From assembly GCA_029258375.1 (NCBI GenBank), contig JARHZA010000001.1, forward strand, positions 725,564 to 789,563: a stretch of DNA of 64,000 nucleotides, written 5' to 3'. Of this stretch, positions 12,185 through 24,451 are shown piece by piece. Positions within the stretch are counted from its first letter, which is position 1. Every line of letters starts with the position of its first letter. The notes under the pieces are model-generated. The model made no database searches, was not told the origin of the DNA, and saw only the letters and a program-made list of their open reading frames with translations. Source of the stretch: Eubacterium sp. Its GTDB lineage: Bacteria; Bacillota; Clostridia; Oscillospirales; Acutalibacteraceae. Both the position numbers and the translations under genes were made by a program.

Positions 12185-12455
12185 TAAATTAACAAAAAAA
12201 TAATTACAAAAATATCAGTATGTAATATATATGAAAAACAATGCAATAAAATACAAACAAAAAACATAATAATGACAAAAAATTAACGAAACAATATGCT
12301 AAATTGATAATTTAATGTTAATTATATTTTTATTGTTATAATAACTTTGTTTTTATTAAATGAAAAACTTATTGTCATAATAAACAAACTTTTCATATTA
12401 CATTTTTGCATAATAACCAATACTCGTCAAATTGCAACAAAAGAATACACCGTTG

Positions 12456-12608
12456 TTGTACAATATTAACAAAATGAAATAACGCAATGAATTCTTTTTG
12501 TATAACTGTAAGGTAAAACTTATAAGAAAACGATTGTGCAATATGCACAAAATATATATTGATCGTTTGTACATAATCACTTGACTTTTTAAAAATTTTG
12601 AATATAAT
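12456..12608 (+). promoter_or_regulatory. Control region of small-gene cassette 1
   Basis: Three elements recur at the same spacing in the 20.0 kb cassette. Site A is TTGTACAATATTAACAA (12456-12472). Site B is TTGTGC-N5-GCACAA (12534-12550), a 17-bp inverted repeat. Site C is TTGTACATAA (12567-12576). They are followed by TTGACT (12581-12586), a 16-bp spacer and TATAAT (12603-12608). A and B both fit TTGT-N9-ACAA and are 78 bp apart in both cassettes. The regulator is unknown. Confidence 0.75.
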
Positions 12609-12643
12609 AAAGACATAAGATAAATGAAGGGAGGAAACAGAAT

Positions 12644-12766
12644 ATGTCAGATAAACTTAGAATGCAAAATGAACTTCTTAAAGAAATCGAAGAAGAAAAA
12701 GGTCTTTCTTGGGGTAAGTTCTTCAGAATGGTTAAGTTATATGCTCTTTGTAATGAGATGAACTAA
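12644..12766 (+). CDS. Small conserved protein, 40 aa (cassette 1)
   Basis: I do not recognise the family. The ATG follows AAGGGAGG by about 9 bases, and the 40-residue product starts MSDKLRMQNELLKEIEEEKG and ends LYALCNEMN. It aligns gap-free with the 41-residue product at 20217: 25 of 40 residues are identical, including EIEEEKG, SW, YALC and a penultimate Glu. Substitutions are conservative (L/I, M/L, K/E), as in a translated gene. It is charged, predicted amphipathic helix, with one Cys near the C-terminus, and no signal peptide or membrane span. It has its own strong promoter and terminator. It could be a small regulator, adaptor or peptide precursor; nothing decides this. Confidence 0.78.
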   Translation: MSDKLRMQNELLKEIEEEKGLSWGKFFRMVKLYALCNEMN

Positions 12767-12791
12767 ACCATTCTCTTTTTTTAAAAATAAT

Positions 12792-12829
12792 CCTTAAATT
12801 ACTGCATAGTGCTAATTCAGTAATTAAGG
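12792..12829 (+). repeat. Inverted repeat in the 3' UTR of cassette 1
   Basis: CCTTAAATTACTG (12792-12804) can pair with CAGTAATTAAGG (12818-12829) with one bulged A. The right arm and the following TTAAGGTTTA are also present in cassette 2 (near 20419), so the 3' UTR may be structured. Confidence 0.5.
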
Positions 12830-12854
12830 TTTACATATATATTTTCTTTTCGAG

Positions 12855-12881
12855 GTGTAACCAATGGGTTACGCTTTTTTT
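12855..12881 (+). terminator. Terminator of small-gene cassette 1
   Basis: GTGTAACC (12855-12862) pairs with GGTTACGC (12867-12874), one G-T pair included, followed by a T7 run. Confidence 0.8.
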
Positions 12882-12896
12882 ATTTTGTAAAATAAA

Positions 12897-12968: not shown

Positions 12969-14153
12969 ATGAAAAATTTTGTAAAAAACTATTGGGGATT
13001 CTTTCCATTTGCAATATATCTTCTTTTGCAAGTTGTAGTTTCAAGTGTTAATAAAATCTGTGGATTTCAACTTCGCAATATGCTAGTTTTGTTTTTGTAT
13101 TGGTTTGCTGTTATCTCTATATTAGTGATTTTTTTGTGGGTTGCTTTATCAATTTACAAAGGAATCCGCAGTAAAAGAGTTAAAGGATATAATATTCTTG
13201 ATAAATTAGTGCTTGTTCTATTTGCTCTTATTGGTGTTTTTGTTGTTTTCTTTAGTGTTTTAATTTGTTCTTTTTTTAATACAGAGGAACGAATAGTTAC
13301 TAAAAACAATATCAAAATGGTTGCAAGTTATAACAATTTTAACGAAGAAAAAGTTAATTATTATGAATATAAAAATAGTTTTGTTTATGGTAAAAATTTG
13401 GGCTTTGAAATCTACTTAAATAGTGAACTTAAAAGTCCTTTGTCAGATGATTTTAATGAGAAACCAATTTCCTGGATTTTTTATGATTTAGATGGCAATG
13501 TTATTGATAGCAGTAATAATAAAAATAATAAATTTAAAAAGATAGATTTAGAAGTAAAAGAAAACAGAGAAAAAGAGTTAGTATTTAATTTTTCGATAGA
13601 TGATTTTATATATAATTATAATAAGTATTACTCAGACGATAAGGGTTCAATTTATCTAAAACCATCTTTAAATTGGCAAGTGAACCAGTTGGAAAAGGCA
13701 GTTCATTCAAAATATAAAATGGATGAATACAGATTTAAAGAAGACGAAAATAAATGGTCATTGCCAATTCTATCTGTTTATGTTCCAGAAAATAGTAATT
13801 ATGTAGAAGAAGTAATTGTTAATTTTGATGATCATGGTCATACAGAAGAAATGTATAATATTTACGAGGAAATATGTTTTTATACTTTAAAAGTCTTTTT
13901 CCCTGATTTGCCAAATGATAAGATAATTTCTCTTTATAAAGAAATTAACGAACTTGCTTATGAAAAAACATTTCCAAAGGAACAAGATTATGATGACGAT
14001 ATTGTGCCATATTCAGTTTATATAAAAGGCAATGTTGGTGTTTATCCTTATTATGCCGTTGGCGATTATGTGCGTCTTTGCATAATTCCTGTTAATGATG
14101 AAACTATAAAAGAATTTAAAGAAAAAGGCGTAAATATTTGCGAAATTCAATAA
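12969..14153 (+). CDS. Hypothetical membrane protein
   Basis: I do not recognise this 394-residue protein. Three hydrophobic segments occupy roughly residues 10-27, 38-62 and 79-105 (ending VFFSVLICSFF). The remaining ~290 residues are polar, rich in Asn, Lys, Glu and Tyr, and probably extracytoplasmic. No catalytic motif or Cys cluster is evident. It has its own promoter and GAGGG ribosome site and shares a convergent terminator with the kinase gene at 14203. It lies between a small-gene cassette and a peptide-response locus, but no link can be shown. Confidence 0.7.
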   Translation: MKNFVKNYWGFFPFAIYLLLQVVVSSVNKICGFQLRNMLVLFLYWFAVISILVIFLWVALSIYKGIRSKRVKGYNILDKLVLVLFALIGVFVVFFSVLICSFFNTEERIVTKNNIKMVASYNNFNEEKVNYYEYKNSFVYGKNLGFEIYLNSELKSPLSDDFNEKPISWIFYDLDGNVIDSSNNKNNKFKKIDLEVKENREKELVFNFSIDDFIYNYNKYYSDDKGSIYLKPSLNWQVNQLEKAVHSKYKMDEYRFKEDENKWSLPILSVYVPENSNYVEEVIVNFDDHGHTEEMYNIYEEICFYTLKVFFPDLPNDKIISLYKEINELAYEKTFPKEQDYDDDIVPYSVYIKGNVGVYPYYAVGDYVRLCIIPVNDETIKEFKEKGVNICEIQ

Positions 14154-14160
14154 AAATTAA

Positions 14161-14204
14161 AGCCGATAATTTGTAAGTAAATTTACAAGTTATCGGCTTT
14201 TTTT
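14161..14204. terminator. Bidirectional terminator
   Basis: A long stem: 14161-14176 (AGCCGATAATTTGTAA) pairs with 14183-14198, loop of 6, then a T-run. It separates the membrane protein from the convergent two-component operon. Confidence 0.88.
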
Positions 14205-15594
14205 ATGTTGTAGGCAGTGTGATTTCTACACAAAAACCATCATAAATGCTATGTTTAATTTCAATTGTACCATTGTGTGCAGATATAATCTGTTTTACTA
14301 TAAGTAACCCTAATCCGTGCCTCTGTTCTGTTGCGTTTTCATCACAAACCATATAATGTGGCGTGTTGTTCAACTTTTCAATTTCATCATCTGTTGCGCC
14401 AATTCCATTATCATAAACAATAATTTTACACTTGTTTGTTTCCTCAATAAGATCAACGTAAATTCTGCAACCATTATTGTTGTGATTTATGCTATTTTGA
14501 ATTAAATTGTTAATTGCTCTATAAATAAGAACTTTATCTGCTTTTATGTTGCATACTTTTAAATTATCATCAATAAGCCATTCAATTGGATAGCAGTTAT
14601 CAATATCAATATTTAAAAAATCTACAACAACTTGTCTTAAAATAGCAACAACGTTTACCTCTTTTTTATTTATTGGTTGCATATTGTATTCTAATTTTGA
14701 AGCAAGGTTTAAGTCATTGATTAAGTTTTTCATTTTTTCACTTTGCTTAACTATAATATCTGCCTTTTTTCGTTCGTCATTAGATATATTGTTATCATTT
14801 TTTAACTGGCTTGCATAACCCATAATCATTGATAAAGGTGTTCTAATATCGTGAGATACACCGGCAATCCAGTTAGCTCGTGCAGTTTCTTTTTTTCTAA
14901 GTTCAATCCTTTGATTTTCTAAAATTTCAGAAGTTTTATTTATGTTTAAAGATATTTCAGATAGTAAACCACTTTCTTTTAGCCTAACGTTTTTGCCATT
15001 GCCTAAATCTTGTATAGCATTTGTAATTGGCTTTATTGATTTTATGATTTTTGAATTGGTAACAATGTAAATTATAAAAATTAAAACTATGTTTACTATA
15101 AATAAACTTATAACTGTTTTAGGCAAATTCGCAATAAAATTGTAATCCCAACTTGGCCACATATGTTTCCAGTAACTGTCTTTTGGAAAACCTGTTACTA
15201 TAATGCCGTCGTCACGTTCGCCGGTAAATGTTGGGCAACCGTCTATATATCCTCTTGTAATGTTTGAAATGTCAGATAATGTATATGTGTTTTTTAAATT
15301 ATCAGGTGCATTATTTGTTTGCCATTTAATACTGTTTGTTTTGTTTTCAATAAATATTGCCCAAGCATTAGAATCTTTAAGTTCGTTTGCTATGTAGTCA
15401 TCTAATACGTAATCACCGTTACTTGTTATTTCAAGTTTATTTGCCACTTCTTCAGCAATTTTCCAAGGCCTGCCGTTTGAGTTTTGCTTAACAGCCAAAG
15501 CAGAAATAAATGCAAAATTTATTATGAATAACAAAATAATGGAAAGAAATAAAATTCCAATAAATCGCCTTATCAGTTTAGGTACACTTTTCAT
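14203..15594 (-). CDS. Sensor histidine kinase (Cpr/Nsr/Bce-neighbourhood type)
   Basis: A 463-residue membrane kinase. TM1 is near residues 10-32, followed by a ~120-residue extracytoplasmic domain, TM2 near 160-182, a HAMP-like linker, the H-box GVSHDIRTPLSM, the N-box NNLIQNSINHN and the ATP-lid boxes DNGIG and HGLGLLIVKQI. I chose ATG 15594 with GAGGG upstream; TTG 15612 would overlap the response regulator gene. It starts 1 base after the regulator's stop, so the two are co-expressed. With the divergent LanFEG-like transporter it probably senses a cationic peptide or lantibiotic (inference). Confidence 0.9.
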   Translation of the reverse strand: MKSVPKLIRRFIGILFLSIILLFIINFAFISALAVKQNSNGRPWKIAEEVANKLEITSNGDYVLDDYIANELKDSNAWAIFIENKTNSIKWQTNNAPDNLKNTYTLSDISNITRGYIDGCPTFTGERDDGIIVTGFPKDSYWKHMWPSWDYNFIANLPKTVISLFIVNIVLIFIIYIVTNSKIIKSIKPITNAIQDLGNGKNVRLKESGLLSEISLNINKTSEILENQRIELRKKETARANWIAGVSHDIRTPLSMIMGYASQLKNDNNISNDERKKADIIVKQSEKMKNLINDLNLASKLEYNMQPINKKEVNVVAILRQVVVDFLNIDIDNCYPIEWLIDDNLKVCNIKADKVLIYRAINNLIQNSINHNNNGCRIYVDLIEETNKCKIIVYDNGIGATDDEIEKLNNTPHYMVCDENATEQRHGLGLLIVKQIISAHNGTIEIKHSIYDGFCVEITLPTT

Positions 15595-15595
15595 A

Positions 15596-16300
15596 TTATT
15601 TTCCCTCAACAATCAGTTTATAACCAAGCCCTTTTATAGTTACAAGTGACTGTGGCTTTGACGGATTTAATTCTATCTTTTCTCTAATTCTTCTAATATG
15701 TGCCATAAGTGAATTTTCATAACCAAATGGATTATCGCCCCAAGCAGCTTGGCATAGTGCGTCTATTGTAACTATTCTGCCTGCATTGCGATAAAGAACC
15801 ATTAGCAGATCGTGCTCTTTTGCTGTAAGAGAAAATTGTTCGCCATTTTTTGTTACCTCTGCTTTAGAAAAATCAATAAAACTATTTTTTAATCTTACAA
15901 TTGAATTTTCTTCTTTATAACTTCTTTTTAAAATTGCAATTACTCTAAAAACAAGTTCTTTTGGTAAAAATGGTTTAACAATATAATCGTCTGCGCCAAT
16001 TGAAAACCCTTTAAATTTGTCTTCGTCTTCTCCTTTGGCAGTCAAAAAAAGAATAGGATATTCTCCTTTTTTCTTTAACTCCTTCATTAAAGTGAAACCA
16101 TCACCATCTGGTAACATTACATCAAGAATTGCAAATTCAGGTTTAATATCTTCTGCTAAATCAATTGCCATTTTTACATTTGTTGCAGTATAAATGTTGT
16201 AAAAACCTTCGTCTTTTAATATAGATTCAACCATATTTAATAATTCTTGTTCGTCATCAACAAGTAAAATTCGTTTACCTTTTAAGTATTCTATATCCAT
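15596..16300 (-). CDS. OmpR-family response regulator
   Basis: A 234-residue regulator: receiver domain with acidic pair DDE at 15-17, phospho-acceptor D60 (FAILDVMLPDGDG) and K in FLTAKGEDE, then a winged-helix DNA-binding domain (LTAKEHDLLMVLYRNAGRIV to GLGYKLI). I favour ATG 16300 because GGTG lies 6 bases upstream; an in-frame ATG at 16321 has no ribosome site. It partners the kinase encoded next. It likely binds the direct repeats at 16368-16425 and drives the transporter operon, as CprR does in Clostridioides difficile. Confidence 0.9.
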   Translation of the reverse strand: MDIEYLKGKRILLVDDEQELLNMVESILKDEGFYNIYTATNVKMAIDLAEDIKPEFAILDVMLPDGDGFTLMKELKKKGEYPILFLTAKGEDEDKFKGFSIGADDYIVKPFLPKELVFRVIAILKRSYKEENSIVRLKNSFIDFSKAEVTKNGEQFSLTAKEHDLLMVLYRNAGRIVTIDALCQAAWGDNPFGYENSLMAHIRRIREKIELNPSKPQSLVTIKGLGYKLIVEGK

Positions 16301-16367
16301 TATAAACACCAACTTTCGCATTTAAAATTATATCATAAAAATTTGTTGTTTTCTATTTTTACTCAAA

Positions 16368-16425
16368 ATGTAAGGAAGATGTAAGGTTAAGAGAATGTTT
16401 ATGCAAGGTTAGGGTTGTAAGATAT
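16368..16425 (+). promoter_or_regulatory. Direct repeats, likely response-regulator binding sites
   Basis: ATGTAAGG at 16368, ATGTAAGGTTA at 16379 and ATGCAAGGTTA at 16401, with a weaker TTGTAAGATA at 16415. Pitches are 11 and 22 bp, whole helical turns, typical of OmpR-family sites. They lie in the gap between the divergent regulator and transporter operons. Confidence 0.65.
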
Positions 16426-16451
16426 AGGTGCAATAAGAAAGGAGCAATTTT

Positions 16452-17207
16452 ATGAACATCATCGAAACAAAAGAATTAACAAAAACTTATGCAGATTTTA
16501 CTGCTGTTTCAAATGTAAATCTAAATATTAAAAAAGGAACTGTATATGGTTTTCTTGGTCCTAATGGTGCAGGTAAGTCAACCACAATGAAAATGTTTTT
16601 AGGATTAACAAAACCAACAAGTGGAACATTTACTATTAACGGAAAAAAGTTTCCAGAAAACAGAGTTGAAATTTTAAAAGAAATAGGTTCTTTCATAGAA
16701 GCACCTGCTTTTTATGGAAATCTTACAGGCGAAGAAAATCTTGATATTATTAGAAAAATTTTAGGGCTTCCAAAATCATCAGTTGATGAGGCATTAGAAA
16801 TAGTTGGTTTAACCCAGTTTAAAAATAGACTTGCAAAAAAATATTCATTAGGTATGAAACAACGTTTAGGTCTTGCAAGTGCATTGATAGGTAAACCACC
16901 AATTTTAATACTTGATGAACCTACAAATGGGCTTGATCCAGTAGGAATACACGAAATAAGAACTTTAATACGTTCGTTACCACAAAAATATGATTGTACC
17001 GTTTTGGTATCTTCTCATTTATTATCAGAAATCGAACTTATGGCAGATGATATAGGTATTTTAAATCATGGAAATTTGTTGTTTGAGGGAACACTTGAAG
17101 AATTGAAGCAAGATGCATTAGTAAAAGGATACCCAATAGAAAATTTGGAAGATACATTCCTTGCTCTTATTGATGAAGATAATATGCGAAGAGGTGTATC
17201 AAAATGA
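16452..17207 (+). CDS. Lantibiotic/antimicrobial-peptide protection ABC transporter, ATPase
   Basis: A 251-residue ABC ATPase of the BcrA/LanF group. Walker A is GPNGAGKST (36-44), the signature YSLGMKQR near 137, Walker B LILDEPTNGLDP near 157 and the H-loop SSHLLSE. Two permeases follow with 4-bp overlaps (ATGA), giving the LanF-E-G layout that exports or expels lantibiotics and related peptides from the membrane. Preceded by AAAGGAGC and by the repeats that the divergent regulator probably binds. Bacitracin-type substrates are possible too. Confidence 0.9.
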   Translation: MNIIETKELTKTYADFTAVSNVNLNIKKGTVYGFLGPNGAGKSTTMKMFLGLTKPTSGTFTINGKKFPENRVEILKEIGSFIEAPAFYGNLTGEENLDIIRKILGLPKSSVDEALEIVGLTQFKNRLAKKYSLGMKQRLGLASALIGKPPILILDEPTNGLDPVGIHEIRTLIRSLPQKYDCTVLVSSHLLSEIELMADDIGILNHGNLLFEGTLEELKQDALVKGYPIENLEDTFLALIDEDNMRRGVSK

Positions 17208-17926
17208 GTTTCATTTTAGAATGTAAAAAAGTAAAACGAACAGGGTTTGTATGGGCTTTTATTTGTTGTGGCGTATTATCTGCTTTTATCCCAATACTTA
17301 ATATGGTAGTGCGTTCAGATATGTTTTTATCGCAAAATGCAACACCTTTAGAAATTTTGTTTAATGCTAACTGGCAAATGATGTCTATGCTAAATATATT
17401 GCTTGTTGTAGCAGGCAGTTCAATTATTTATCATACTGAATATTCAGATAACGCAATTCAAAAAATGAAAACACTTCCTATTTTAGAGGAAAAAATATTT
17501 TTTAATAAATTTATTTTAATGGCAGTTATGACTTTTATCACGTTACTTATAGAAATGATTGGAATAGGGTTTTCTGCTTATCACTGGTTTGAATTTACAA
17601 GTAATACTTTTTTAGAATTAGTGAAAAATTTTGGCTATTGTTTTCTTTTAATGTTACCTGCTATTTTAACATCTATTTTAATTTCATCTGCTTTTAAAAA
17701 TATATGGTTATCACTTGGTGTAGGGGTTGTTTGTGTGTTTGTTGCAACTATGATACCAACAAGCAATTTTTATTTATCGCTTTTTCCTTATGCTATGGTA
17801 TTTCAAATTTTTTCATCAGCAAAAATCAGTATGATTACTAAATTTATAATAGCATCTTTAAGTGAAATATTGATTTTAATATTTTCAGAAATCGTTTTTG
17901 TAAAAGTAAGGAGGCGTTTTGAATGA
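17204..17926 (+). CDS. Lantibiotic-immunity ABC permease (LanE-like)
   Basis: A 240-residue integral membrane protein with about six hydrophobic segments, the usual size of LanE/MutE-type permeases. The N-terminus MSFILECKKVKRTGFVWAF and the YHTEYSDNAIQKMKTLPI loop fit this family, in which a short cytoplasmic loop follows TM2. The start overlaps the ATPase stop by 4 bases. It forms the membrane channel with the next gene. Confidence 0.85.
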   Translation: MSFILECKKVKRTGFVWAFICCGVLSAFIPILNMVVRSDMFLSQNATPLEILFNANWQMMSMLNILLVVAGSSIIYHTEYSDNAIQKMKTLPILEEKIFFNKFILMAVMTFITLLIEMIGIGFSAYHWFEFTSNTFLELVKNFGYCFLLMLPAILTSILISSAFKNIWLSLGVGVVCVFVATMIPTSNFYLSLFPYAMVFQIFSSAKISMITKFIIASLSEILILIFSEIVFVKVRRRFE

Positions 17927-18693
17927 ATTTTATATCGCTTGTTGGCGTTGAACTAAAAAAGATTAAGCGTTCTAAAATTATACTAATTTTGGCAGTTGCA
18001 ACTGTTATTTTATGGGTGCCATCTATTTTAAATGTAAATATGAATTTTAATATGCAGGCTGAGGGTATCTCTCCAGAAAATAATTTTTTTATACAGGGAT
18101 TTATGGGGCTTTCTTGGTTTATTTTTCCAGCAACTATGGTTGTCAGCACAGTTTTACTTAATATGACTGAAAGAAGTAACAAAGGCATATTAAAAATGTT
18201 ATCGCTACCGGTTAACAAAACAAAGTTATGCCTTGCAAAGTTTTCTGTTTTATTGATACTTGCATTTTTGCAAATTGCAATGAATGTTTTAATGTATTAT
18301 TTAAGTGCATTTATAGTTACAAATACGCAAAATTACGATTTTATATTGTCGCCTTTATTTGTGTTAAAAGAAGTTGGATTTATATTTATTTCATCAGTTC
18401 CAATGATTTCTATATTTTGGTTAATATCTGTTTGTGTAGCAACACCAATATTTTCTATTGGAATTGGTTTTGCATCAATAGTTCCATCTGTTTTAATGAT
18501 AAATACAAAATTTTGGTTTGCTTATCCAATGTCTTATCCATTTTTTGTAATAACATCAGAGTATGGAAAATTGGCAACAAATTTAACTACAAGTCAAGTT
18601 GAACTTGTGCCTTGGTTGCCAGTTGCATTTTGCATTACAGTTTTATCACTGTTTATTTCTTGTATTTGTTTTGGAGAAAGTGGAAGGGGATAA
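17923..18693 (+). CDS. Lantibiotic-immunity ABC permease (LanG-like)
   Basis: A 256-residue permease with six hydrophobic segments. The loop NMTERSNKGILKMLSLPVNK corresponds to that of its partner (YSDNAIQKMKTLPI), showing the two are paralogous halves. The start overlaps the previous stop by 4 bases. With the 16452 ATPase it makes a complete three-component transporter like CprABC or NisFEG. Confidence 0.85.
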   Translation: MNFISLVGVELKKIKRSKIILILAVATVILWVPSILNVNMNFNMQAEGISPENNFFIQGFMGLSWFIFPATMVVSTVLLNMTERSNKGILKMLSLPVNKTKLCLAKFSVLLILAFLQIAMNVLMYYLSAFIVTNTQNYDFILSPLFVLKEVGFIFISSVPMISIFWLISVCVATPIFSIGIGFASIVPSVLMINTKFWFAYPMSYPFFVITSEYGKLATNLTTSQVELVPWLPVAFCITVLSLFISCICFGESGRG

Positions 18694-18699
18694 CTTTTT

Positions 18700-18984
18700 A
18701 TGAAAAATAAAATGATAACATTTATTAGCACAATAATGATGATTGTGCCGTGGACAATATTTCTAATAAGAACTTTTGATTGGGCACTGCAATCGCCAGC
18801 AGCAGAAATAATTATTTCTTGTTACGCAGCTTTTATGATTATAAGTGGTATTTTTACAATTGTTTCTTATGTAAAACTAAAATTACAAAATAATTTAATG
18901 AAAATTTGTTTGCTCATTAACTCCATTTATGCGGTAGTTGGTGTTATGGCTATTGGAATGATGATTGTTCCAAAATTTATGTAA
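18700..18984 (+). CDS. Small membrane protein of the peptide-resistance operon
   Basis: A 94-residue protein made almost entirely of three hydrophobic segments (about residues 5-24, 34-56 and 66-91). The start is 6 bases after the LanG-like stop, so it is in the same transcript. I do not recognise the family; small membrane proteins of this kind often accompany LanFEG/Cpr operons, but its role is unknown. A strong terminator follows. Confidence 0.75.
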   Translation: MKNKMITFISTIMMIVPWTIFLIRTFDWALQSPAAEIIISCYAAFMIISGIFTIVSYVKLKLQNNLMKICLLINSIYAVVGVMAIGMMIVPKFM

Positions 18985-18993
18985 ACATTTTAA

Positions 18994-19027
18994 AATAATG
19001 CAACCTGTTTGGTTGCATTATTTTTTT
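18994..19027 (+). terminator. Terminator of the peptide-resistance operon
   Basis: AATAATGCAACC (18994-19005) pairs with GGTTGCATTATT (19011-19022), loop TGTTT, then T-run. Confidence 0.88.
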
Positions 19028-19030
19028 ATT

Positions 19031-19059
19031 TTAACAAAGTTCGAATATAAAAATATAAT
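19031..19059 (+). promoter_or_regulatory. Promoter of the amidase gene
   Basis: TTAACA (19031-19036), 17-bp spacer, TATAAT (19054-19059). Confidence 0.65.
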
Positions 19060-19104
19060 GATATATAAAGTTTTAAATTTTATAAATGAAAAGGAGGATG
19101 TGTT

Positions 19105-19902
19105 GTGAGCAAAATATTGTTTGCTGTTGGTCATGGCAAATCAAACAGCGGTGGTTATGATAGTGGCGCAACTTCAAATGGTTATCAAGAGTTTAAAATT
19201 GCAAGGGAAATTACAAAATATGCACAGGAATACTATAATGAAAACTATAATGAAAATTGCGATATAATGAATTATAATGGCAATTTATCATTAAAAGATA
19301 GAATAAACCTATTACAAGATGATACTTATGATCTTGTTGCAGAAATTCATCTTAATTCAGGCGGTGGTTTTGGCACGGAGTGTTATTATCATCATGAATC
19401 ACAAAGAGGTAAAGAACTTGCAGAAGAAATTACTAAAACAATTTCAAACGATATGGGCATTAAAAATAGAGGAGCAAAAATAAAGTTGAATTCAAATGGC
19501 GATGATTATTTTGGCATAATTAGAGAAACAAAGCCTTCTGCAATCCTCATTGAAACGATGTTTATAGATACTTCAGATGTTGAAAAAATAAATTCAGCAA
19601 GAGGTCAGAAAAAATGTGGAAAAGCCATTGCTAAAGCAGTGGCAAAAGTTAGAAATGTTAATGATAATAATAGCGATAATGGCAAAGGGGAGTATAACGT
19701 GACAAAAAAATATAAAAACGGCTCTACAAATGAAAATGTTTATGCAGATACTGAGTTTAAAAACAAAATTGGATCACTTGATAAATACGAAGAGTGTGAA
19801 TGTATTGATAAAGTAGACGGAAAATATGTGGTTAAATATAAAGTTAATGGCAAAGAGGCTTATAAAGTAGGCTTTGTGGAGTATAGCGGTGGATTAAGTT
19901 AA
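19105..19902 (+). CDS. N-acetylmuramoyl-L-alanine amidase with C-terminal SH3-like domain
   Basis: A 265-residue Amidase_3 enzyme that cleaves the amide bond between MurNAc and the stem peptide. Zinc ligands are H10 (FAVGHGKSNSG), E29 (YQEFKIARE) and H82 (AEIHLNSGGG); the catalytic Glu is E150 (AILIETMFID). Residues from about 195 form a small beta domain (YKNGSTNENVYADTEFKNKI) resembling SH3-type wall binding. The GTG start follows AAGGAGG. There is no signal peptide, so export is unexplained. That is the layout of phage endolysins, yet no holin or other phage gene is near. It could be a domesticated lysin or depend on cell lysis. Confidence 0.88.
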   Translation: MSKILFAVGHGKSNSGGYDSGATSNGYQEFKIAREITKYAQEYYNENYNENCDIMNYNGNLSLKDRINLLQDDTYDLVAEIHLNSGGGFGTECYYHHESQRGKELAEEITKTISNDMGIKNRGAKIKLNSNGDDYFGIIRETKPSAILIETMFIDTSDVEKINSARGQKKCGKAIAKAVAKVRNVNDNNSDNGKGEYNVTKKYKNGSTNENVYADTEFKNKIGSLDKYEECECIDKVDGKYVVKYKVNGKEAYKVGFVEYSGGLS

Positions 19903-19932: not shown

Positions 19933-20028
19933 ATAATAAATTTTATGAAAAAATATACAAACTTTTTGAAGTGTAAATGATAATAATAGGCTTGTATGGT
20001 CATTGTGCTATAAAGATTATGTAATAAC

Positions 20029-20181
20029 TTGTGCAATATTAACAAAACAATAAATAGCTATAAATTGATTTTGTGAAAGTTAGAATTAAAATTGATAGTT
20101 TTGCAATTGTGCAAAGTGCACAATAAACATATAGAATAGTTGTGCACAATGCCTTGACATTTTAAAAAATTTGAATATAAT
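20029..20181 (+). promoter_or_regulatory. Control region of small-gene cassette 2
   Basis: Same elements and exact spacing as cassette 1: site A TTGTGCAATATTAACAA (20029-20045), site B TTGTGC-N5-GCACAA (20107-20123), site C TTGTGCACAA (20140-20149), then TTGACA (20154-20159), 16-bp spacer, TATAAT (20176-20181). The A-B (78 bp) and B to -35 (47 bp) distances are identical to the first copy. Confidence 0.75.
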
Positions 20182-20216
20182 AAAGACATAAGATAAATGA
20201 AGGGAGGAAATAGAAT

Positions 20217-20342
20217 ATGGCAGATGAAATCAGACTTCAAAACCAACTCATCAAAGAGATTGAAGAAGAAAAAGGTTTTTCATGGAAGAAAGTAATGAGA
20301 ATAGTTGAACTTTATGCTCTTTGCAGTGAATTTGCAAGATAA
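20217..20342 (+). CDS. Small conserved protein, 41 aa (cassette 2)
   Basis: Paralogue of the 40-residue product at 12644; family not recognised. It begins MADEIRLQNQLIKEIEEEKG, continues FSWKKVMRIVELYALCSEF and ends AR. The 44 bases from the -10 to the ATG differ from cassette 1 at only one position, more conserved than the coding part, so the 5' UTR may matter by itself. It has no signal peptide or membrane span, one Cys in YALCSE and helical, charge-rich character. It lies after the amidase gene and has its own promoter and terminator. Confidence 0.78.
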   Translation: MADEIRLQNQLIKEIEEEKGFSWKKVMRIVELYALCSEFAR

Positions 20343-20436
20343 AGTAACCTAACCCATTACTTTACTTTAAAAAATTAGTTCTTAATAAAATGATTATAAA
20401 AAATAGTTAATTAAAAAATTAAGGTTTATATATGAT

Positions 20437-20469
20437 ACGGTGTAGCCAGCAATGGCTATGCCGTTTTTT
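20437..20469 (+). terminator. Terminator of small-gene cassette 2
   Basis: ACGGTGTAGCC (20437-20447) pairs with GGCTATGCCGT (20454-20464) using two G-T pairs, then T-run. Its core resembles the cassette 1 terminator (GGTGTA-CC). Confidence 0.85.
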
Positions 20470-20490
20470 GCTTTGTAATGCAAAATTATA

Positions 20491-20534: not shown

Positions 20535-21368
20535 CTATTCAAAGTTATCAACTTTATCTCCCTCAAGGGCTCTAAGTGTTGTGCCGTGAACAATTTCATT
20601 TTTAAATCTGTCTTGTTGTGCGTGGTATGAATAAATTATATCCATCATAACAAGAATTGGAAATTGAGGAGAAATTGAGTTTCCGTGGTTTAAATGGTTT
20701 AAAGAAGGTATTAAAACCACTTCGTCACAAAAATCAACAAAGTTTTCTCTGTTGTTTGCAGTTAATAGAACGGTTTTAGCACCACGTTTGTGGGCTTCAC
20801 GTAAAAAATAAAGAAGACCAGATTTTTCCCCACTAATACTAAATGCTAAAACAAGGCTGTTTTCATCTTGTAAAACTGCTTGCATTCTCATAATATCAGA
20901 ATCGTTAACTGCGTTAATATCAATTCCTAATCGCATAAATCTAAGCCAAACTTCGTTGGCAGCAAGTCCCGAACTACCTTTTCCACAAACAAAAACTCGT
21001 TTTGCCTCGTCAATGTATTGACTTATTCTTGCTATTTGTGATTCATCAACTAAACTATAAGTTCTGTTAAGTAGTTCTTGATATGCATTTAAAACTATTC
21101 TTGTGTTACCGGTCATAGATTCCCTTTTTTCAATAAATGTTTCTTCATATTGATATATGAATTCTCTATAACCTCTAAATCCACATTTTTTTGCAAATCT
21201 TGAAAGGGAAGCTTCTGAAATGAATAATTGCTCTGCAATAGCTTTTGCAGAAAAATCTTGTTTTTTTCTGTTGTGAATGAAAAAGTCAGCAATATTTTTT
21301 TCAACATTTGTTAGTTTGTTGTAATTTGACTCGATAATCGGAATTACAGACTTTTCATAGTATTCCAT
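20535..21368 (-). CDS. RpiR-family regulator of sialic acid catabolism
   Basis: A 277-residue protein with an N-terminal HTH_6 domain (about 15-75, with AIAEQLFISEASLSRFAKKCG as recognition region) and a C-terminal SIS sugar-phosphate-binding domain (VFVCGKGSSGLAANE, then AFSISGEKSG). RpiR-type NanR proteins repress nan genes in Clostridium perfringens and Staphylococcus aureus and respond to ManNAc-6-P. Position at the end of the nan operon supports that job here. It has its own promoter and lies behind a terminator, so it is partly uncoupled from nanQ. Confidence 0.9.
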   Translation of the reverse strand: MEYYEKSVIPIIESNYNKLTNVEKNIADFFIHNRKKQDFSAKAIAEQLFISEASLSRFAKKCGFRGYREFIYQYEETFIEKRESMTGNTRIVLNAYQELLNRTYSLVDESQIARISQYIDEAKRVFVCGKGSSGLAANEVWLRFMRLGIDINAVNDSDIMRMQAVLQDENSLVLAFSISGEKSGLLYFLREAHKRGAKTVLLTANNRENFVDFCDEVVLIPSLNHLNHGNSISPQFPILVMMDIIYSYHAQQDRFKNEIVHGTTLRALEGDKVDNFE

Positions 21369-21400
21369 AATCTACCTTCTTTATAAATTACTTCTTTTAC

Positions 21401-21430
21401 ATACTACCACTATTTTATTTTGTTTGTAAA
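21401..21430 (-). promoter_or_regulatory. Promoter of the rpiR-type gene
   Basis: Minus strand TTTACA (21425-21430), 18-bp spacer, TAGTAT (21401-21406). No ATTGAAA-N4-TTTCAAT operator is visible here, so strong autoregulation is not indicated. Confidence 0.55.
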
Positions 21431-21454
21431 GTGTATTTTAATTTTTATAAAAAC

Positions 21455-21484
21455 AAAAGGCAAACCAATAATGGCTTGCCTTTT
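21455..21484 (-). terminator. Terminator between nanQ and the rpiR-type gene
   Basis: AAAAGGCAAACCA (21455-21467) pairs with TGGCTTGCCTTTT (21472-21484) with one mismatch; a T-run follows on the minus strand. Confidence 0.8.
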
Positions 21485-21497
21485 AATAATTTATAAT

Positions 21498-21953
21498 TTA
21501 TTTTTGAATTTGAACTTTAAAAATTGCTTTTTTAATGTTCATAGGCTCGTTAACTTTAATAGCAGTTCTATGTGCATCGTTAGGGTAGCAAACTAAAAAG
21601 TCTCCTTCACTTAAACATACGTCGCTATTTTTTTCGCCATCCATTGGAAGAAAATCATCTTTTTTAACATATTCTTTTAATTCCATATTTTTAATGAAAT
21701 TAACGTCAATTTGTTCTTCACCACAAATCATAAAATGCACATCAAGATAGTCTTTGTGGGCTTCCCAAAAACGATTCTCTGGTGTTGTTGTTTCGTATTC
21801 AACTATGTTTACGAAAAGTCTTTCACCATCAATTTCATGGCAACCTTTTTCAAATGATTTCAAATCGTGAGTTTTAACGTAGTCAAAACACTCTTTTACA
21901 CTGTCTTCAAGAAAACTAAATTCTTCAATATTATCAATACTTCCAAAGATCAT
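21498..21953 (-). CDS. nanQ: N-acetylneuraminate anomerase, YhcH/NanQ family
   Basis: A 151-residue single-domain cupin-like protein of the YhcH/YjgK/YiaL (DUF386) family. The family motifs are here: RFWEAHKDYLDVHFMICGEE with the metal-binding His pair, and FLVCYPNDAHRTAI. NanQ speeds conversion of imported alpha-Neu5Ac to the open or beta form used by the lyase. It lies 24 bases after the symporter gene in the nan operon. Confidence 0.92.
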   Translation of the reverse strand: MIFGSIDNIEEFSFLEDSVKECFDYVKTHDLKSFEKGCHEIDGERLFVNIVEYETTTPENRFWEAHKDYLDVHFMICGEEQIDVNFIKNMELKEYVKKDDFLPMDGEKNSDVCLSEGDFLVCYPNDAHRTAIKVNEPMNIKKAIFKVQIQK

Positions 21954-21977
21954 TTTTATTTTCCTTTCTGAAAACTG

Positions 21978-23483
21978 TTATTTCTTATAAATTGTTGTGT
22001 TAGGTGCAGGAACAGTTTTTTCTCCCTTAATTTTACTCCAAATTAAGCTTGCAGGAATACCAACAACAAGTGAAACTGCAATTGAAATAATTGAGTAAGA
22101 CCAGATTGATACTGAACCAGCAGGAGCAAGATATTTAATGCAAATCATAACGATTGTTGCAGCACCAAATGCTAATGAAGCACCAAATGTGTTTGCACAC
22201 TTAGTAAATGCACCAAGTATAAATGTTCCAACTAAGATACCAAGAACAAGTCCCATAAATCCGTTGAACCATTCATAAGCAGATTTAACACCACCGTTTG
22301 CAAGAATCATAGCAACAGCGATTGAGAAGATACCAACAACAAGTGAAACGATTTGACCAATCTTAGTTTGAGTCTTAAAGCTAAGTTCTTTTTTAGATAA
22401 TCTTTCTTGAATATCTAATGTCCAGCTTGATGCAACAGAGTTCAAACCAGTTGAAAGTGTTGACTGAGCTGCTGCATAAATGGCTGCTAAAAGAAGACCG
22501 GTAACACCTACAGGAAGTTCGAATGCAATGTATGATGCAAAGATTTGGTCTTGTTCAGCTGCTGGAGGAAGTGCGTTTTGTTGATAGAAAACGTATAAAC
22601 CAGTTCCGATAAAGTAGAATACAGTTGCAATAAAGATTGATAACAAACCGTTTGTAAGCATCATTTTGTTTAACTTCTTTGTATCTGTAGTTGTTGTAAA
22701 ACGTTGAACAATATCTTGGCTTGATACATAAGAGCCAATTGTGTTGATACCAGCACCAACAATTAAAAGGAATACACTGTCTTTTAAGATGTTAATGTCA
22801 AAAATTGGTTGGTCTGCAGAAAGGAACTTGCCTTCTGTTGTAAATGCGTTGAATATTGAACCCATACCACCATCAAGATGAGCAATTAAGAATATAAACG
22901 CAAATGTTACACCAATTAAAAGAACAGAACCTTGAATGAAGTCTGTCCAAAGAACAGATTTTAAACCACCAGAATAAGAGTAAATAATAGCAATTACACC
23001 CATAATTATGATGAGTAAGTTAACATTTATACCTGTTAATTTACCAAGAACCATACAAGGTAAGTACATAATGATAGACATACGACCAATTTGGTAAATG
23101 ATAAACATTACAGCACCAAGAACACGTAAACCCTTGCTATTAAATCTTAATTCAAGATAATGATAAGCAGTGTCTATACCAAGTTTACTGTAAATAGGTA
23201 AAAAGAATTTGATTGTAATTGGAATAGCAAGAAGCATTCCGAGCTGAGCAAACCACATAATCCAAGTGCCTGAATATGAGTTACCAGCAAGTGATAAGAA
23301 TGAAATAGGGCTTAATAAAGTTGCGAAAATAGATACTGATGTTACCCACCAAGGAATAGTTCCGTCTCCTTTAAAATATTCCTTTCCTTGCATTTCTTTT
23401 TTAGAGAAATGAAGACCAGCGAATAATACAGCAGCGAGGTATACAATAAGAATAATTAAATCGATAGTAGTAAAACCTTGCAT
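21978..23483 (-). CDS. Sodium:solute symporter, probable sialic acid transporter
   Basis: A 501-residue SSS-family carrier with about 13 membrane segments. The SSS patterns are present: GKEYFKGDGTIPWW near 34, then SGGLKSVLWTDFIQG near 167 and AAIYAAAQSTLSTGLNS near 340. SSS-type SiaT proteins import Neu5Ac with sodium in several pathogens and gut bacteria. Between nanA and nanQ it is the only transporter of the operon, so sialic acid is the expected substrate. Confidence 0.9.
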   Translation of the reverse strand: MQGFTTIDLIILIVYLAAVLFAGLHFSKKEMQGKEYFKGDGTIPWWVTSVSIFATLLSPISFLSLAGNSYSGTWIMWFAQLGMLLAIPITIKFFLPIYSKLGIDTAYHYLELRFNSKGLRVLGAVMFIIYQIGRMSIIMYLPCMVLGKLTGINVNLLIIIMGVIAIIYSYSGGLKSVLWTDFIQGSVLLIGVTFAFIFLIAHLDGGMGSIFNAFTTEGKFLSADQPIFDINILKDSVFLLIVGAGINTIGSYVSSQDIVQRFTTTTDTKKLNKMMLTNGLLSIFIATVFYFIGTGLYVFYQQNALPPAAEQDQIFASYIAFELPVGVTGLLLAAIYAAAQSTLSTGLNSVASSWTLDIQERLSKKELSFKTQTKIGQIVSLVVGIFSIAVAMILANGGVKSAYEWFNGFMGLVLGILVGTFILGAFTKCANTFGASLAFGAATIVMICIKYLAPAGSVSIWSYSIISIAVSLVVGIPASLIWSKIKGEKTVPAPNTTIYKK

Positions 23484-23530
23484 AATGTTTTCTCCTTTAA
23501 CTCACAAATGTTTAGTGTTTTTTATTGAGT

Positions 23531-24451
23531 TTATGCCAAAAATTCTGCTTTTGCATCAAGAATCATCTTTGCTGCTTCTTCAACGATAGCCATATCGCTG
23601 TCAGCAAGTGATTCAAGTGGTTCTCTAACTCCACCAAGTTCTAATCCTTCGTTAATCTTAAGGATTGCTTTTATAACACCATACATATTACCGTGGGCAG
23701 AGCACATTTTATAAATTACTTCGTTAACTGCATATTGTAATTTTTGAGCAGTAGCCATATCGTTTGCCTTAACAAGTTCATCTAATTTAAGGAATAATTC
23801 TGGCATTACACCATAAGTGCCACCGATTCCAGCTTCAGCACCAATTACTCTACCACTGATGAATTGTTCGTCTGGACCATTGAAAATGATATAGTCTTCA
23901 CCGGCTGCTTGCTTAAACATTTGAATGTCTTGAACAGGCATTGATGAGTTTTTAACACCAATAACTCTTGGGTTCTTTCTCATTTCAGCAAATAAGCCTT
24001 GAGTTAATGCAACACCAGCAAGCTGTGGAATGTTGTAAATAACAAAGTCAGTGTTTGGAGCTGCTGAACTAATATCATTCCAGTATTTTGCAATTGAGTA
24101 TTCAGGTAAATGGAAGTAGATAGGAGGAATAGCTGCAATTGCATCTACTCCAAGACTTTCTGCGTGTCTTGCGAGTTCCATACTGTCTTTTGTATTGTTA
24201 CAAGCAACGTGAGCAATAACTGTTAATTTGCCTTCTGCTGCTTTCATTACGTTTTCAAGAACGATTTTTCTATCTTCAACGCTTTGGTAAATACATTCGC
24301 CTGAAGAACCGTTAACATAAACGCCTTTAACACCTTTTTCAACAAAATACTTTGTTAAAGCTTGAACACCTTCTGGGCTAATGTTTCCTTCTTTGTCATA
24401 GCAAGCGTAAAATGCAGGAATAACGCCTTTATATTTGTTTAAGTCTCTCAT
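23531..24451 (-). CDS. nanA: N-acetylneuraminate lyase
   Basis: A 306-residue DapA/NanA-superfamily TIM-barrel aldolase. Key residues: GSSGE (48-52) binding the keto-acid carboxylate, Y139 (VIYNIP) and Schiff-base K167 (IGVKNSS). It splits Neu5Ac into ManNAc and pyruvate. Operon context with NanE, NanQ and an RpiR regulator separates it from dihydrodipicolinate synthase, which has GTTGE in the loop. Located 39 bases after nanE. Confidence 0.93.
   Translation of the reverse strand: MRDLNKYKGVIPAFYACYDKEGNISPEGVQALTKYFVEKGVKGVYVNGSSGECIYQSVEDRKIVLENVMKAAEGKLTVIAHVACNNTKDSMELARHAESLGVDAIAAIPPIYFHLPEYSIAKYWNDISSAAPNTDFVIYNIPQLAGVALTQGLFAEMRKNPRVIGVKNSSMPVQDIQMFKQAAGEDYIIFNGPDEQFISGRVIGAEAGIGGTYGVMPELFLKLDELVKANDMATAQKLQYAVNEVIYKMCSAHGNMYGVIKAILKINEGLELGGVREPLESLADSDMAIVEEAAKMILDAKAEFLA

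Follow-up and report, generated by a model that had tools for sequence, protein, structure and literature searches.

Small proteins such as SinI and Sda dock on a partner protein and change its activity, and Rop is a hairpin dimer that binds RNA. Operators of the Lrp/AsnC type, for example those of Ss-LrpB, are odd-centred palindromes that occur several to a control region, about three helical turns apart. Boxes for the host regulator CtrA occur in alphaproteobacterial phages, according to an excerpt of PMC9437464.

Here we describe a small-gene cassette that is present twice in a 64,000-nucleotide stretch of Eubacterium sp. DNA (hereafter the window), together with the family to which it belongs. 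Like SinI, SlrA and Sda of the Bacilli, its product falls in the range of 40–60 aa, is predicted to form two helices, appears to be cytosolic and is encoded by a tightly controlled gene; by eye, it also resembles the SinI-type proteins in the S-x-(K/E)-(K/E)-(I/L) turn that leads into helix 2. The predicted models of the window copy and of the relative L085 both have the two-helix hairpin of the SinI family. SinI was absent from the 14 Pfam families matched at E ≤0.5 by 29 members, and no SinR-type gene was found among the scanned window neighbours, the HTH regulator beside cassette 2 being of the RpiR type; a partner of the SinR type may be encoded elsewhere. The mode of action of the protein may resemble that of SinI and other small hairpin regulators, without a match to the model of that family. 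The operators of the cassette share with those of the Lrp/AsnC type their odd-centred palindromes, their occurrence several to a control region and a distance of about three turns, but they are 17 bp long with TTGTGCA half-sites; to our knowledge, the consensus sequences of LexA, Rex, CRP/FNR, Spo0A, WalR, LysR and Lrp do not fit the box. Neither the literal operator strings nor the half-site combined with further terms occurred in the literature searched. As with the CtrA boxes, operators of host type appear to stand at promoters of unrelated phages, but in the case of CtrA the regulator is known and its binding has been shown (excerpt of PMC9437464), whereas the present box is a spaced pair recognised in sequence alone.

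The family has no match among the families, structures or RNAs in the libraries searched, which agrees with the initial annotation, where the protein had been called a family of no known identity. For the 29 of 36 members scanned (seven later additions lie outside this set), Pfam, NCBIfam, PHROGs and PADLOC gave no coherent match, the best E values of 0.0065 (HTH_SUN2, four members), 0.013, 0.026 and 0.023, respectively, being scattered and weak. The best PDB match by sequence had an E value of 0.23 over a 17-residue stretch, and the best by fold an E value of 8.3. No coherent match was obtained in plasmids and phages by tblastn with copy 1, or in viral_contigs with the two-copy alignment as query. 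Rfam returned nothing above its gathering score at the cassette in the window and 16 relatives, only tRNAs elsewhere and two chance-level cassette matches.

The window cassettes and the extent of the family

In cassette 1 the initial annotation had read a 17-bp inverted repeat TTGTGC-N5-GCACAA, a TTGT-N9-ACAA site 78 bp upstream, a near-consensus promoter, a 40-aa ORF, a 3′ inverted repeat and a terminator, and each of these elements is present (Table 1), the last as a terminator-like repeat. It had overlooked a third site lying on the -35 and a weak fourth one further upstream, in both cassettes. The identical spacing that it ascribed to the second copy holds through the ORF and breaks down in the 3′ parts, which differ by gaps.

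Table 1. Features of the two cassettes, with positions in the window.
Feature	Position	Strand	Remarks
Cassette 1	12456-12881	+	40-aa ORF behind multi-site promoter
O0 of cassette 1, weak fourth operator, CTCGTCAAATTGCAACA	12423..12439	+	33 bp above O1; fourth-best score with leave-one-out O2 matrix
O1 operator of cassette 1, TTGTACAATATTAACAA	12456..12472	+	78 bp upstream of O2
O2 operator of cassette 1, perfect palindrome TTGTGCAATATGCACAA	12534..12550	+	aligned across promoters
O3 of cassette 1, half-site TTGTACA	12567..12583	+	overlaps -35, 33 bp below O2; 20/21 fixed positions
Promoter of cassette 1	12581..12608	+	-35 TTGACT 12581-12586, 16 bp, -10 TATAAT 12603-12608; conserved in alignment
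ORF copy 1, 40-aa helical-hairpin protein (predicted fold)	12644..12766	+	
3′ RNA hairpin of cassette 1, then CATATATA	12785..12847	+	best match of RNA model R1 in 64 kb
3′ inverted repeat of cassette 1	12792-12829		within hairpin region
Terminator-like inverted repeat with T run, cassette 1	12853..12883	+	read in sequence
Cassette 2	20029-20470	+	second copy, 7573 bp further on
O0 position in cassette 2, ATGGTCATTGTGCTATA, very weak	19996..20012	+	third-best upstream site, negative score (-1.4)
O1 of cassette 2, TTGTGCAATATTAACAA	20029..20045	+	
O2 of cassette 2, TTGTGCAAAGTGCACAA	20107..20123	+	
O3 of cassette 2, TTGTGCACAATGCCTTG	20140..20156	+	overlaps -35; 21/21 fixed positions
Promoter of cassette 2	20154..20181	+	TTGACA, 16 bp, TATAAT
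ORF copy 2, 41-aa helical-hairpin protein (predicted fold)	20217..20342	+	
3′ region of cassette 2	20340..20470	+	weak hairpin, TTTATATATG, terminator-like repeat; missed by model R1

With seed 14 and minimum length 40, the only direct-repeat family reported for the 64 kb is the cassette pair, extending over 300 nt at 75% ungapped identity. Comparison of the two cassettes shows 39 of 40 identical bases in the stretch that runs from base 2 of the -10 up to the start codon, and 104/148 in the operator and spacer region (12456-12603). Counted by itself and with up to two mismatches, the O2 palindrome occurs four times in the window against a shuffle mean of 3.8, the two exact occurrences being those of the two cassettes; it is the combination of elements, rather than the palindrome alone, that is non-chance.

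The interval between the cassettes (12969-19902) encodes a 394-aa protein without a family, a histidine kinase with an OmpR-type regulator, an ABC transporter with two ABC-2 permeases, a DUF308-like protein (below the Pfam cut-off) and an Amidase_3 protein, and an Fe-ADH was also found among the scanned window neighbours. Just downstream of cassette 2, on the minus strand (20538-24451), lie genes for the RpiR-type regulator (HTH_6, SIS), a YhcH-type DUF386 protein, a sodium:solute symporter and a DHDPS-family protein, a cluster that, from its gene content, looks like one for sugar-acid (sialic acid?) uptake. An imperfect inverted repeat of 40 nt, its arms separated by 14 nt, lies at 908-1001 of the window.

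A profile search of genome_contigs returned at least two homologous loci, and the family as finally assembled has 36 members, mostly from one taxonomic family of Clostridia, so that the protein does have homologues; among 29 of them the mean pairwise protein identity is 35%. In the family of G428, the genome that carries L014, 25/299 genomes had a match and 24 were kept; in its order the figure was 11/394, of which G428 and six others were kept on promoter evidence. The set also takes in the genome of L013, the window copies, one member found by its promoter and two tandem second ORFs, which lie 3′ of the first gene without a promoter of their own (L091, 1779-1901; L105, 1646-1789) and are excluded from the promoter counts. 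Genome-wide, the organism of the window has two copies, two further matches (E 0.33 and 1.2, over 15 and 11 profile positions) not being credible. Among relatives the cassette was found in 0/59 other genomes, 36 of them of the same genus (0/36; 2-sequence profile), in the order of the window in 0/393 other genomes (4-sequence profile), and class-wide in 0/390 other genomes with a promoter pattern that 26/34 known promoters satisfy. The distribution of the cassette is patchy.

Conservation of the promoter and the protein

The operator consensus across the family is TTGTGCA-N3-TGCACAA (17 bp). In the promoter alignment O2 starts at -47 and O3 at -14 relative to the -35, a distance of 33 bp; two of the 28 rows, L103 and L106, are unplaced because they are one base shorter, and the start of L125 is set one base off, which affects the 5′ distance only. 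Upstream sites in these 28 promoters were scored with a matrix derived from O2, each promoter being left out in turn. O1 lies 74–79 bp above O2 in 24/28, where the best upstream site is at -121 to -126 from the -35, the exceptions being L088, L091, L093 and L106, and a weak O0 lies about 33 bp above O1 in 14/28 (-155 to -158 from the -35, among the best four sites). Perfect half-sites are frequent in the same 28 promoters: TTGTGCA occurs at -47 in 11, at -14 in 22, at -13 in two and at -126 to -122 in 10, and TGCACAA at -37 in 17.

Joining the O2 half-site, 16 unspecified bases, O3 and the -35 gives a composite pattern with 21 fixed positions, at least 17 of which are matched by 31/34 promoters; 27/34 reach at least 18/21 (up to three mismatches) and 26/34 have up to two mismatches. 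A scan of both strands in 33 sources, the entire window among them (314,008 positions), gave no match at ≥17/21 outside cassettes; five matches read a cassette in mirror image from the opposite strand. L103, L106 and L182 were retained despite a score of 14, since by eye they fit with one base fewer between O3 and the -35. Candidates left out of the member set comprise L177, member-like by protein yet with a best promoter score of 14/21, L180, L183 and L184, with long frames and without a promoter, and L108, whose match covers profile positions 17-39 inside a 544-codon frame.

The exact O3/-35 pattern occurs 19 times in 26 genomes, always at a cassette. Allowing a single mismatch adds 25 occurrences, five at cassettes and 20 elsewhere, against 10 matches in all for a reversed-pattern control. 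At the operator and -35 positions of 34 promoters the mean pairwise identity is 86%, compared with 35% for the protein in 29 members; as judged from these alignments, the promoter is the most conserved part of the cassette, above the protein that it drives, and can therefore be used to find members missed by protein search. One such case is L125, the second cassette of G437, which was first recognised by its promoter alone and encodes a diverged member.

As far as codon comparisons tell, the 40/41-aa protein itself is under purifying selection. Copies 1 and 2 differ with a dN of 0.217 and a dS of 1.6, giving a dN/dS of about 0.14 (Nei-Gojobori, 38 codons; dS is near saturation), with coding differences of 12/2/17 at the first, second and third codon position; random placement of the same changes gave so few nonsynonymous ones in 0.9% of 436 draws that were free of stops. 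In four other pairs the values were dN 0.21 and dS 0.97 for L084/L085, dN 0.09 and dS 0.96 for L104/L109, and dN 0.15 and 0.17 with saturated dS for L085/L087 and L084/L087. The argument that conservative substitutions mark a real protein is thus borne out by a ratio far below 1, and the description of a regulated small-protein family fits the 36 members, this ratio and a promoter more conserved than its product.

M1, K19 and L32 are conserved at ≥90% across the family, and there is a basic patch in which position 19 is K/R in 29/29 members, with K/R24 at 86%, K/R25 at 90% and K/R28 at 86%. AlphaFold predicts a two-helix hairpin for the window copy (helices 3-17 and 23-39, mean pLDDT 88) and for L085 (helices 4-17 and 23-39, mean pLDDT 91). 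Over 29 members the mean hydropathy is -0.40 and the best 19-residue window averages 0.45 with a maximum of 1.03, so that no hydrophobic membrane or signal segment was found by this measure. The peptide signal that had been suggested as one role for the protein is accordingly unlikely in a secreted form, because the protein is charged and lacks a strongly hydrophobic stretch; either of the other two suggested roles, adaptor or regulator, may apply.

Downstream of the stop codon L084-L087 share a hairpin in which 14/22 pairs covary (both sides changed in at least one sequence). The RNA model R1, built from these four relatives, ranks the 3′ region of cassette 1 first in the 64 kb with 22.9 bits and a rough E value of 0.01; it gave no match at cassette 2 and chance-level matches in other relatives. 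Within 160 nt past the stop, CATATA occurs in 15/36 members against a shuffle mean of 1.1 and maximum of 4, and (C/T)ATATA in 24/36 against a mean of 2.6 and maximum of 7, both motifs having been picked after looking.

The operator in cell-wall genes and phages

The exact O2 palindrome occurs in 13 places in 9/26 genomes, seven at cassettes and six outside, and no regulator gene stands behind it at any of these six. Two of the six are in terminator-like hairpins (L077, L144), one precedes a gene of unknown role (L149), and three precede G5/DUF348 cell-wall genes (L074 in G000, L142 in G443, L150 in G656). All of the latter promoters (3/3) have the start of the palindrome exactly 36 bp above the -35 TTGACA, without overlap, and a spacer to TATAAT of 17 bp as against 16 in the window cassettes. 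Pfam domains are DUF348 and G5 in L074 and DUF348, G5 and 3D in L150; L142 and L150 are 62% identical, so the three genes are not fully independent, and for L074 the identity is 28% over 282 aligned columns. Rfam gave no riboswitch in any of the three loci. This second recurring target of the operator thus encodes DUF348-G5(-3D) proteins of the type of the Firmicute Rpf-like YabE/Sps cell-wall proteins, as far as these are covered in an excerpt of PMC1084345; the link to the operator comes from the present analysis, not from that excerpt.

One spelling of O2 is found in 59 viral loci, several of which look like chance because one coding sequence is repeated among them. At least two palindromes are present in 12 of the 59 (not dereplicated), compared with 0.002 expected from base composition in all 59 together. 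An operator pair at 33 bp occurs in 29 viral contigs (27 distinct pairs), as against five contigs at 34 bp, one at 37 bp and none at 29 bp. Ten of the 27 distinct pairs have a -35-like hexamer (≤1 mismatch) 49–51 bp from the start of O2 (44–53 examined), compared with 47 in cassettes, followed 15–19 bp further on by a -10-like hexamer (≤2 mismatches); the other 17 have no such promoter by this hexamer test, these being raw counts. In the single-site phage promoters L016 and L038 the palindrome abuts TTGACA. No credible member of the protein family was found in the stretches taken from 87 operator-bearing viral loci (821,026 bases, with all 29 pair contigs represented and most contigs covered in part), one match at E 0.046 having been rejected.

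In three viral contigs of 13–14 kb the operator lies near both ends: L188 (14002 bp; positions 75, 128, 203, 255, 13870 and 13945), L072 (67 and 13735), which encodes a protein with a Podovirus Gp16 match, and L023 (61 and 13711). Around position 3249 of L035 the O2 palindrome adjoins two TGTTTCACGTGAAACA sequences, which we take to be parS-like.

Proposed regulation and its alternatives

The reading that we prefer, with a probability of roughly 0.45, is that a putative host regulator, probably of the activating kind, controls expression of a cytosolic adaptor with a hairpin fold, and that phages may use the same sites. Each cassette would consist of a single free-standing gene, and its product, about 40 residues long, would be a cytosolic protein folded as a two-helix hairpin; the regulator would bind the operators as cooperating dimers, with the hairpin protein as its main chromosomal output. 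We favour an adaptor as the role of the small protein: its hydrophobic faces and the conserved patch of basic residues (K19, K24, K25, K28) would let it dock on a partner protein and alter that protein's activity, possibly with feedback on the same host regulator. By placing the operator pair in front of promoters of their own, phages of several lineages would sense the same host state. The geometry relative to the -35 is fixed although the proteins have about one third of their residues in common, which argues for a conserved factor that binds DNA, and the presence of the operator core in viral DNA points to a putative host regulator. The comparison with CtrA (excerpt of PMC9437464) suggests phages that read such a regulator. 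Weighing against the preferred reading are the patchy occurrence of the cassette, the 20 single-mismatch O3/-35 matches outside cassettes and the 62% identity between two of the cell-wall genes.

Whether the sites activate or repress turns largely on their position. Counted from the first base of the -35, their centres lie 6 bp (O3), 28 bp (cell-wall site) and 39 bp (O2) upstream, in steps of 22 and 11 bp and hence roughly on one helical face, and an activator touching RNA polymerase fits this arrangement better than a repressor. The differing spacers, 16 bp in the cassettes and 17 bp in the cell-wall promoters, change the phase from the transcription start by one base, and the argument from phasing does not extend to the phage pairs, given their longer distance to the -35. 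The regulator might instead be a repressor: a dimer on O3 would block the -35, with O2 and a loop to O0/O1 as aids, and the small protein would be an anti-repressor whose synthesis follows derepression. In favour of such a repressor are the overlap between O3 and the -35 and the presence of an upstream pair: sharing bases with a near-consensus -35, here combined with a TATAAT -10, is classic for repressors, the O0/O1 and O2/O3 pairs have equal internal spacing and lie 111 bp apart, which suits looping, and at L016 and L038 the viral palindrome directly abuts the -35. The cell-wall site, clear of the -35 at the same distance in all three genes, and the 11- or 22-bp steps between site centres speak against it. 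We regard repression as a possibility to be taken seriously, if tentatively; from the arrangement of sites, activation appears only slightly likelier.

Three further explanations concern the small protein itself. It might bind the operators and control its own gene, since every exact O3/-35 match across the 26 genomes belongs to a cassette, one cassette having come to light through such a match, and the basic patch (K19, K/R24, K/R25, K/R28) is conserved; we consider this unlikely, as mean identity is down to about 35% in the protein against 86% at the operator positions, and the viral stretches examined, parts of most contigs, hold operators and no credible member. The predicted hairpin with its basic patch, the covarying 3′ hairpin in four members and the CATATA excess near the stop (a motif chosen after looking) would also suit an RNA-binding hairpin dimer that works like Rop and targets the 3′ hairpin of its own mRNA and possibly of other transcripts, but R1 misses copy 2 and does not confidently recover more distant members, and the 3′ hairpin may merely protect the mRNA end, which makes such a role quite improbable. 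A small ORF in a tightly controlled stand-alone gene is what a type I toxin or a secreted peptide signal would look like, and with the low hydropathy of the 29 members, in mean as in 19-residue maximum, we think either very improbable.

Returning to the preferred reading of a host regulator and its adaptor, a much stronger version would have a new host master regulator of gut Clostridia act through a spaced operator pair carried by several phage lineages, with 40-residue hairpins as its dedicated output and, in its boldest form, with the 40-residue protein as the operator-binding factor. We hold this to be doubtful. If the boldest form were true, the protein would rank among the smallest known gene regulators and would act on phage genes as well as its own. 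Annotation readily overlooks genes as short as 40 codons. Finding the regulator would allow direct tests of how growth state and phage development are controlled in gut Clostridia, which have been little studied.
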